From positions 1 through 46,389 of the forward strand of contig JAFYPU010000028.1 in assembly GCA_017547385.1 (NCBI GenBank): 46,389 bases of DNA, written 5' to 3'. Numbering within the stretch: the first letter of the stretch is position 1; the number at the start of each line of letters is the position of its first letter. Positions 44,172-46,389 of the stretch are shown one piece after another. The position numbers and the translations under genes were made by a program. Source of the stretch: Bacteroidaceae bacterium (GTDB lineage: Bacteria; Bacteroidota; Bacteroidia; Bacteroidales; Bacteroidaceae). The notes under the pieces were generated by a model that ran no database searches, was not told the DNA's origin, and was given only the letters and a program-made list of their open reading frames with translations.

Positions 44172-44567
44172 GGGGCAGACTGGATTTGACAGCGGGTCGG
44201 AGTGGTGTGTAAGCATGCAGTGCGGACGGAGGCGGGCACTTTAATCTCGGCTTTCAAAAATTTAACTGGCGAAAACAACTACGCTCTCGCTGCCTAATCG
44301 AAGCACAGTAGATAGGGCTTAATTCCGTTGCAAGGCGATGGAACGAGACATCACCCGGACGCCGTCGTCCCGAGGCAGTTCGACAAGGTGGTGCAGATAA
44401 ATCGGGAATAGTCATGGCGGGCCTCGCCGTCGTGATGAAGTTTTAGAGGATAAGGCATCGGTTGGTAGCTTCGGTCTTGCCGCTGCTCGAAAACTAAAGC
44501 GAAGATAAGCATGTAGAAAGCACATTGTTTCCCCGTTTGGACGAGGGTTCGATTCCCTCCTGCTCCA
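44172..44567 (+). ncRNA. ssrA: tmRNA (SsrA)
   Basis: Rescues stalled ribosomes. The 5' end GGGGCAG (44172-44178) pairs with CTGCTCC (44560-44566) as the acceptor stem, followed by discriminator A at 44567; CCA is not encoded. A T-arm GGTTCGATTCC precedes it. The tag frame at 44268-44297 reads GENNYALAA and stop, the Bacteroidetes form of the degradation tag. The last 7 nt (44561-44567) are also the first bases of the left inverted-repeat arm. Confidence 0.95.
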
Positions 44568-44777
44568 CTCCTAACTGGGTTAAATAACCCTGAAAGCAAC
44601 CGAAAGACATTGATAATCTGATAGATTACCGATGTCTTTCTTTGTTTTTGCACCAATCACCCTGACAGCACCCGTTAAAACCTATTTCTGATAGCGGGTC
44701 GGTGCAGAAAGATGTTGATAATCTTACAAATATCCACACAACACCCCCCGCAGTATGCTGTCTGAAACGGATGGGGA
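44561..44777 (+). repeat. Left 217-bp inverted-repeat arm of the recombinase cassette
   Basis: Aligned base by base against the reverse complement of 46041-46257, only two positions differ. The arm starts inside the tmRNA 3' end (TGCTCCACTCC). It holds a small palindrome GGGTTAAATAACCC (44577-44590), an 18-bp stem terminator-like hairpin (44602-44640), a split hairpin (TGCACC at 44649 with GGTGCA at 44701) and two TTGATAATCT motifs (44610, 44715). Confidence 0.95.
44602..44649 (+). terminator. Terminator of tmRNA inside the left arm
   Basis: Arms 44602-44619 and 44623-44640 pair over 18 positions with one G-U and one mismatch around a 3-nt loop, followed by TTTGTTTTT. The same structure is mirrored in the right arm, where it would end minus-strand transcription. 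Confidence 0.75.
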
Positions 44778-44800
44778 GGGTGATTGGAAAATGTTCAAAA

Positions 44801-44833
44801 TCTGATACCAACTTTTTTTCATCTGAGACCAAT
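44801..44833 (+). promoter_or_regulatory. Tandem TCTGAkACCAA motifs upstream of the recombinase
   Basis: TCTGATACCAAC at 44801 and TCTGAGACCAAT at 44822 are direct repeats 21 bp apart, each followed by a T run. The second is repeated in reverse (ATTGGTCTCAGA, 46324-46335) outside the right arm. They may be operator or recombinase accessory sites. Confidence 0.45.
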
Positions 44834-44876
44834 TTTTTCTGTGTGAAATATTGTCTAACATTAAACTTATACCCCT

Positions 44877-46022
44877 ATGACTATCACATTCGTTTGCAGA
44901 AGTGCAAAAGTCAGTAAAAAGGACGGACTGACCCCATTGGAACTATACGTTATCATCAAAGGGAAAAGGCGGTTCGTCTCCCTTAACCGTAAAATTGACT
45001 ATAAACTTTTCAACCCCAAGAAACAGATTGTCCGTGGAGACCCACAGACCAACGAATACATTGAAGCAGTCCGTATGAAGTGTTATTCGCTGGAAACGGA
45101 AATGTTGAAGCGTGGTCTCCTCCTCACAGTGGATACCTTCGTCTATGCGTTCAAGCACGGTATCAGACAGAACAGCATATCCGTCTATGCACTATTTGAT
45201 AACTTTATGGAAAAGCAGTTGGAGAAGGAGGAAGTGGGTCTGATTACACACGCTATATATGTCAAATACCGATGCACAATCCGTTATTGTAAGGAAGCGA
45301 TGCAGACCGACAAGATGCTGTCTGAACTTACCACATCTGATATGGAAGACATTTACACGTATATGCTCCATCAGATGTCCAACAACAGTGCAATCTGCTA
45401 TATGAGAAAGTTAAAGACTATATTGATATATGCTATCAGTCAAGGATACATATCAAGCAACCCACTCACCTTCAAATTACATAAGGATAAGGTAAAGAAA
45501 GAACCTCTTACCCTTGAAGAAGTCCGTCGGATACGGACAAAGGAATTGGGGTCAAGGAGTTTGGAAAATATCAGAGACCTTTTCATTCTGCAATGTTATA
45601 CGGGACTTGCGTTTAGGGATATGTCCAGTTTGACCGAGAAGGACATTGAGATAGACAAGGACGGTAAAGAATGGATTGTCAAGGAGCGTATCAAGACAGG
45701 TGTTATTGCGTTTATCCCCATCCTCCCAGTTGTCAAGGAAATACTGGTCAAGCATAACTATCACCTGCCTACATTGACAAATCAGAAATACAATTCATAC
45801 CTGAAAGAAATACAGGAGATATGTGGTATAAAGAAGACACTGCACTCCCATCTTGCACGCCATACCTGTGGAACGCTGCTCCTCAATGCTGGTGTGGATA
45901 TGCTTACCGTATCAAAGGTTCTCGGACACAGTTCAACAAAGACCACCGAGATGGTGTATGCTAAACTACTCCCCGAAACAATAATGAAGCGTGTAGAGGA
46001 AGTGTCTGACAAACTGATGTAA
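44877..46022 (+). CDS. Tyrosine recombinase/integrase (Bacteroidetes type)
   Basis: A 381-residue site-specific recombinase. An arm-type DNA-binding region covers about residues 1-70 (VCRSAKVSKKDGLTPLELYV), a SAM-like core-binding domain about 100-205, and a catalytic domain from about 210. Catalytic residues: K273 in RIKTG, H325 and R328 in HLARH, H351 in LGHSS, and nucleophile Y361 in MVYAKL. The usual first Arg site (GLR) is replaced by A, with an Arg three residues on (TGLAFRD, R247), comparable to the IntDOT-like family, which also lacks it. Intact frame. It lies alone between the two 217-bp arms, beside the tmRNA. No excisionase gene is seen in the window. Confidence 0.92.
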   Translation: MTITFVCRSAKVSKKDGLTPLELYVIIKGKRRFVSLNRKIDYKLFNPKKQIVRGDPQTNEYIEAVRMKCYSLETEMLKRGLLLTVDTFVYAFKHGIRQNSISVYALFDNFMEKQLEKEEVGLITHAIYVKYRCTIRYCKEAMQTDKMLSELTTSDMEDIYTYMLHQMSNNSAICYMRKLKTILIYAISQGYISSNPLTFKLHKDKVKKEPLTLEEVRRIRTKELGSRSLENIRDLFILQCYTGLAFRDMSSLTEKDIEIDKDGKEWIVKERIKTGVIAFIPILPVVKEILVKHNYHLPTLTNQKYNSYLKEIQEICGIKKTLHSHLARHTCGTLLLNAGVDMLTVSKVLGHSSTKTTEMVYAKLLPETIMKRVEEVSDKLM

Positions 46023-46040
46023 GAAGACTATCCAACCGTA

Positions 46041-46257
46041 TCCCCATCCGTTTCAGACAGCATACTGCGGGGGGTGCTGTGTGGATATTTGTAAGATTAT
46101 CAACATCTTTCTGCACCGACCCGCTATCAGAAATAGGTTTTAACGGTTGCTGTCAGGGTGATTGGTGCAAAAACAAAGAAAGACATCGGTAATCTATCAG
46201 ATTATCAATGTCTTTCGGTTGCTTTCAGGGTTATTTAACCCAGTTAGGAGTGGAGCA
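46041..46257 (-). repeat. Right 217-bp inverted-repeat arm of the recombinase cassette
   Basis: Mirror of 44561-44777 with two substitutions. It ends in GGAGTGGAGCA, the reverse complement of the tmRNA 3' end TGCTCCACTCC. It begins 18 bp after the recombinase stop codon. The spacer between the arms is 1263 bp. Confidence 0.95.
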
Positions 46258-46389
46258 TTAGCGAACTGATAGCAATCTCCTTATTTTATTGATAATCTTG
46301 ATGTTTCAAAATCCTATTTTTAGATTGGTCTCAGATTTTGACCAATAAAAAGCACGTTTTTACATACTGATGATTTACCTTTATATACA
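46258..46389. other. Sequence beyond the right arm
   Basis: No gene is visible. It contains a fifth TTGATAATCT (46289-46298) and an inverted copy of the TCTGAGACCAAT motif (46324-46335), both also found on the other side of the cassette. This suggests the mobile element continues rightwards past the window. Confidence 0.5.

Follow-up and report, generated by a model that had tools for sequence, protein, structure and literature searches.

The window, that is, the whole stretch of 46,389 nt analysed here, is the entire contig C19 of a MAG with 34 contigs and a completeness of 86.5%, and close to its right end it carries a tmRNA gene (ssrA; 44172..44568, plus strand; ARAGORN and Rfam RF00023) that encodes the tag GENNYALAA and whose final 8 nt, TGCTCCAC (44561..44568), are the putative attachment core. 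Beginning with these 8 nt, a left arm (44561..44777, plus strand) is repeated in inverted form as a right arm (46041..46257, minus strand), which closes with the inverted copy of the core (46250..46257, minus strand), and the contig stops 132 nt further on. Direct comparison showed that the arms are reverse complements of 217 nt with 215 identical positions (215/217), the two mismatches falling at left-arm positions 44671 and 44741, and that the spacer between them measures 1263 nt. A repeat search gave 225 nt at 98% for the same pair, which is a loose extension into the tmRNA, exact identity beginning at TGCTCCAC. Both arms harbor an inverted-repeat hairpin followed by a T-rich stretch, located by the repeat search at 44602..44640 (plus strand) and 46178..46216 (minus strand); the left one was folded, with a z of -6.8, and this terminator-like hairpin probably stands in for the native terminator of the tmRNA. 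The spacer contains a single intact tyrosine recombinase (integrase) of 381 aa (44877..46022, plus strand), which matches Pfam PF00589, PF13102 and PF17293 above their cut-offs and displays arm-binding, SAM-like and catalytic domains. The residues R247, K273, H325, R328, H351 and Y361, which were located by script and are all present, are its candidate catalytic residues according to the motif that we assume for such enzymes. A search of solved structures returned weak matches only, five of the six being integrases or recombinases. A sequence-only reading of this DNA had described a 217-bp inverted pair with two mismatches, one intact recombinase gene in the spacer, and the last tmRNA bases with a terminator-like hairpin in each arm, and our comparison agrees with all of these points.

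The same reading had proposed a search for relatives with such arms around a recombinase beside ssrA, and five were found at tmRNA 3' ends. They came from a pattern-based protein scan of 84,980 species genomes, in which 38 pattern matches were reduced to five confirmed relatives with 79-89% identity to the integrase protein of the window. All five originate from MAGs, three titled Alistipes and two titled Bacteroidales, and all lie directly behind the tmRNA 3' end with the integrase facing away, including L006, where the contig boundary truncates the tmRNA so that only its 3' part is present and ARAGORN makes no call. Long arm pairs were observed in the window (217 nt), L008 (225 nt), L009 (214 nt) and L007 (at least 108 nt, up to the contig end), the right arm being complete in L008 and L009, while the contig of L010 stops inside the integrase gene. 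Chance would not produce an inverted pair as long as 217 nt, and the arrangement comes back in independent genomes whose arms differ in sequence; it is therefore not a one-off artefact. L006 is rearranged: a short piece of an arm follows the integrase, and behind it lie an ATPase_2/DUF234 gene and an arm that has diverged. Its region L006:1700-3420 resembles a second cassette, made up of the arm fragment, the ATPase_2/DUF234 gene, an inverted arm nearest to that of L010 and a hairpin in the opposite sense, so the arms may carry genes other than the integrase.

This putative mobile element of gut bacteria is rare in the genomes searched. Within the family of the window, the integrase was detected in one of 201 genomes, its own (E <= 1e-60), and at the level of the order in 8 of 393 (E <= 1e-50), namely its own and seven with distant relatives at 32-38% identity; an alignment query at 1e-90 in the family of the MAG G589 found 3 of 268 genomes, all of them among the relatives already known. 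Scans of viral contigs seeded by exact short patterns disclosed no relative of the integrase, the integrase alignment, the resolvase, the cargo helicase or two DNA patterns. In plasmid and phage collections, all integrase matches were below 60% identity, with 33% as the best among the matches listed, and the DNA matches covered the tmRNA end only; no long inverted pair was seen in three helicase-related and three integrase-related phage records.

Counted from the right core, the final 140 nt of the window recur with one mismatch on another contig of the same MAG (G000), C28, and 132 of them, the putative P flank (46258..46389, minus strand), extend beyond the core (131/132 nt identical). On its other side, the C28 junction has a sequence with a strong terminator-like hairpin, which is read as the native 3' flank of the tmRNA (B'), so that C28 would hold attR and the 132 nt that close the window would be the P flank; a strong hairpin follows the core in all four attR found (G000, G590, G591 and G592). 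The core TGCTCCAC is common to three junctions of G000: CTCC-TGCTCCAC-TCCTAAC at attL (tmRNA-core-P'), GCTAA-TGCTCCAC-CCATGC at attR, and GCTAA-TGCTCCAC-TCCTAAC at the internal, inverted site, and these differ only as the tmRNA, B', P and P' halves predict. The left arm would thus be the body of P' and the right arm an inverted copy of it, and the latter together with the P flank reads as a complete inverted attP (P-core-P'), a third att site just behind the integrase, which places the integrase between inverted att sites. The junction is also found in other MAGs, as the right arm of L009 overlaps contig C145 of G591 by 55 exact nt (48 beyond the core) and the right arm of L008 overlaps contig C34 of G590 by 26 exact nt (just 13 beyond the core); in all three MAGs with an assembled outer arm end, the right arm therefore runs into the P flank of attR (132, 48 and 13 nt). 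An attL and a direct attR with the same core are present in G000, G590, G591 and G592, on different contigs in each. The earlier notion of a lone cassette in place of the usual direct repeats is thereby overturned: the MAG also has a direct attR, and the right arm belongs to an extra inverted attP of what looks like a larger element. For the remaining MAGs, attR was the only one of the two junctions found in G592, both G592 and G589 are without an outer right arm, G588 is rearranged, and queries with the P of the window and with the resolvase found no P end in G588 or G589. On the B' side of attR in G590, contig C34 (L062:3998-4098) shows similarity to the initial 78 nt of an arm, with 82% identity to that of L007, as if the arm of an older element had remained behind the tmRNA.

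A serine recombinase of the resolvase/invertase type adjoins P in G000, G590 and G592, its domains being documented for the G000 copy. It points at the P end (L050:1632-2339, L063:423-1097) and is weakly Mpi-like, at a score far below the model cut-off. The element thus seems to have recombinases of both classes, one per end. Further close homologues of the resolvase occur in G589, G590 and G592, but not beside such a junction. In G592, the 7.6 kb of contig that follow attR encode, after the resolvase, a lipoprotein-like protein, a helicase of the DEAD type and products lacking any Pfam match; this cargo (L063:1744-7793) consists of the lipoprotein-like gene, the helicase of 651 aa and genes without a family match. 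Distant relatives of the 651-aa helicase occur in phage records, and another distant relative, on contig C4 of G403 (L085), lies between a 70-nt inverted pair of 81% identity (339-408 and 2663-2730). For the inner ends of C28 and C34, 1.1 kb past attR, no continuing contig was found with the end of C28 as the query, a longer repeat of P having been considered. C28 ends (L050:2379-2612) and C18 of G589 begins (L108:1-190) directly upstream of one and the same small gene, at 78% DNA identity, and the region upstream of this gene may be variable.

With regard to the asymmetry of the cassette, two candidate arm-type repeats, AATCTGATACCAA and CATCTGAGACCAA (44799..44832, plus strand), stand 21 nt apart between the left arm and the integrase, and they are conserved in the relatives. 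With a AATCTGAKACCAA-type pattern that was written after viewing the alignment of the relatives, the first copy was recognized in 6 of 6 cassettes and the second in 5 of 6 at one mismatch. One further repeat of the type lies in P, at 46325-46337 in the window and in each of the three attR where P is long enough, once with a mismatch, the P of C145 being too short. From the stop of the integrase to the right core, none was found in the three complete right arms, so the repeats are confined to the 5' side of the gene. When two mismatches are allowed, the motif by itself occurs in the window no more often than chance would readily produce, with 3 occurrences against 2.28 expected and 43 of 100 shuffles reaching 3, and it is solely position and conservation that make these repeats candidates. 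By analogy with lambda-type integrases, we presume that they are probably arm-type Int sites. As the two repeats beside the integrase stand on its 5' side only, a flip of the segment would change which att site is complete, and we propose that the observed orientation is the one with the complete attL.

The arms are 99-100% identical within one element and 46-73% identical between elements, with the exception of three comparisons at 82-85% (the left arm of L006 versus the left and the right arm of L007, 85% each, and the right arm of L006 versus that of L010, 82%), and the integrase DNA is 74-90% identical between elements. L006, where the ATPase gene parts an arm from the integrase, serves as a broken-pair control: the separated arm has 68-72% identity to its own left arm and 82-86% to that of L010. 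Because arms are identical within elements and divergent between them, and because the broken pair has diverged, these comparisons indicate that exchange continues between the arms of intact cassettes, via Int, homologous recombination or both. A search of six genomes with the L007 arm gave matches at E < 0.01 only at cassettes, at attR or at the second arm of L006, weaker matches of 26-28 nt occurring elsewhere; this search is blind to arms of the L009 type and ran over binned contigs.

What the sequences show directly is that matching cores stand at three junctions, that these junctions recur, that the arms agree within an element and that the candidate repeats occupy one side. From these findings we consider it somewhat better than an even bet that the arms and the integrase form the left end of a larger integrative element at the tmRNA 3' end, with the layout tmRNA-core-[P'-int-inverted P']-inverted core-[inverted P ... 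cargo ... P]-core-B', a single molecule deduced from the contig ends, as no contig was found to run from the internal site across the cargo into attR. The main competitor, which we hold to be rather unlikely, is an ordinary tmRNA island seen in a mixture of integrated and excised forms, in which case the attP behind the integrase would be that of the circle and the contig would have joined it to the integrase through the repeated arm. Excision would generate exactly the set of attL, attR and attP observed, and when the assembly graph was modelled, the vertex of core plus P that the junctions share fitted, taken alone, such a mixture as well as our layout. However, while excision to a circle could account for an attP junction, it could not place an inverted P' arm at the back of the integrase 3' end, and this arm, seen in the window, L008, L009 and partly in L007, is left unexplained by the mixture. 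Moreover, the arm joined to P in the window has the bases specific to the right arm, at least 111 nt from P, which favors the one-molecule layout, and no other cargo neighbor of the right arm was found in the six genomes searched with the L007 arm.

A third inverted core would also allow the entire cargo to invert, with the internal site and attR as its boundaries and with two different ends, P and Q, so that one P would yield both the arm-core-P and the B'-core-P junctions. This improbable arrangement predicts two neighbors each for arm-core and B'-core, and modelled contigs then stop at the core, whereas in G591 the contigs on either side continue for 48 nt into P, and C28 continues for 1.1 kb; no Q end appeared in the searches made, and the continuity of the contigs disfavors such isomers. 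We also considered a compact recombinase transposon with terminal inverted repeats that inserts only at tmRNA ends, since the unit of about 1.7 kb is clear, has long inverted ends and occurs in several genomes. This idea of a stand-alone unit was rejected as very improbable, because what flanks the unit on the outside is the P of the element itself, which is present again at attR, and because strong matches to the L007 arm (E < 0.01, six genomes) lie only at tmRNA-derived loci. Least probable of all is a fold-back chimera at the contig ends, which was rejected: the contigs of the window, L007, L008 and L009 do stop in or just after the right arm, but the sequence past this arm is not reversed tmRNA, it is found elsewhere in the same MAG, the overlaps vary by assembly (140, 26 and 55 nt) and the layout recurs with different arm sequences.

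Under the favored layout, in which the integrase-bearing left end and the cargo form one molecule, recombination of attL with attR would excise a circle, and the integrase would there lie between two inverted full att copies, as FLP does in the 2-micron plasmid. Int or homologous recombination would invert the integrase segment between the inverted sites, and exchange between the arms would keep them identical, while the hairpin in each arm would keep the tmRNA terminated in either orientation. Since an inversion would carry the two arm-type repeats along with the 5' portion of the integrase gene, it would move them from attL to the internal site and thus shift competence for excision, one orientation being competent and the other not. 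Inversion during replication of the circle could further raise the copy number. For the sequence-only claim of self-inversion, there speak the inverted cores, the conserved layout, the arms kept identical and the prospect that an exchange would restore the tmRNA end and its hairpin; against it, the integrase points away from the tmRNA in all six cassettes (the window and the five relatives), so that the opposite orientation that this reading had asked for among relatives was met in none of six loci, each represented by one sequence per genome. The inverted repeats with their sites flank the segment as in an inversion system, the role of the cores as recombination sites being drawn from the junction sequences, and the inversion itself is plausible.

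The tRNA- and tmRNA-targeting tyrosine-recombinase elements of Bacteroidales share with this element an integrase with arm-binding, SAM-like and catalytic domains that lies beside attL and points inward, a core at the tmRNA 3' end and a direct attR. The distant integrase relatives (32-38% identity) adjoin tmRNA, tRNA-Lys or tRNA-Leu in 6 of 8 loci, and no long inverted arms were found around their genes in 11 loci with up to 1.5 kb of flank (shortened by contig starts in L012 and L025), the sole pair flanking a gene being one of 38 nt at 82% in L026. The present element differs from them in its third complete att site, which is inverted and stands behind the integrase. Tyrosine-recombinase inversion switches are known from Bacteroides (Tsr), and the RecV switch of C. 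difficile reportedly inverts DNA with inverted repeats by means of a tyrosine recombinase as well; unlike in these, the arms here are attachment sites of a mobile element and exceed 200 nt, the segment is the recombinase gene itself and none of the six loci is reversed. In vitro, the archaeal tyrosine integrase of Thermococcus pTN3 catalyzes inversion of DNA flanked by inverted att sites, the sites tested being tRNA genes, whole or in part, placed on a plasmid to model chromosomal ones (PMC5495485). The inverted att sites are thus a shared trait, but in our element they are built in around the integrase.

The nearest layout known to us is that of the 2-micron plasmid, where the recombinase gene FLP is carried on the replicon and its inverted FRT targets lie within inverted repeats of 599 bp (PMC6594588, PMC3147054). 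Both have a tyrosine recombinase gene with inverted target copies in long inverted repeats; unlike the plasmid, the present element is bacterial, integrates at the tmRNA and displays its arm-type repeats on one side only, and replication of a circle, isomers and amplification are hypothetical here. No replication gene was identified in the element, the cargo of G592 containing the DEAD-type helicase. The attL and one full inverted attP were observed, and the second full site would be expected only after excision. We therefore put forward only tentatively that the element is a bacterial counterpart of the 2-micron plasmid, that is, a circle with the integrase between inverted full att sites, whose flip locks or unlocks excision by moving the arm-type repeats and can amplify copies via flipped replication forks.

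In the titles and abstract openings of the literature consulted, we recognized no description of an integrase between inverted att sites at the tmRNA in Bacteroidales. As contigs tend to break at the diagnostic junction, such elements may be missed in short-read assemblies. In our judgement, the feature is real, conserved and unusual, and we regard it as a novel form of integrative element targeting the tmRNA, in which an inverted attP is built in around the integrase. Integrative elements classically have two direct att sites, between which an exchange means integration or excision. The third, inverted and complete att site behind the integrase would add inversion to this two-site scheme, whereby excision could become heritable and open to switching, and the element offers a bacterial test case of the 2-micron layout.
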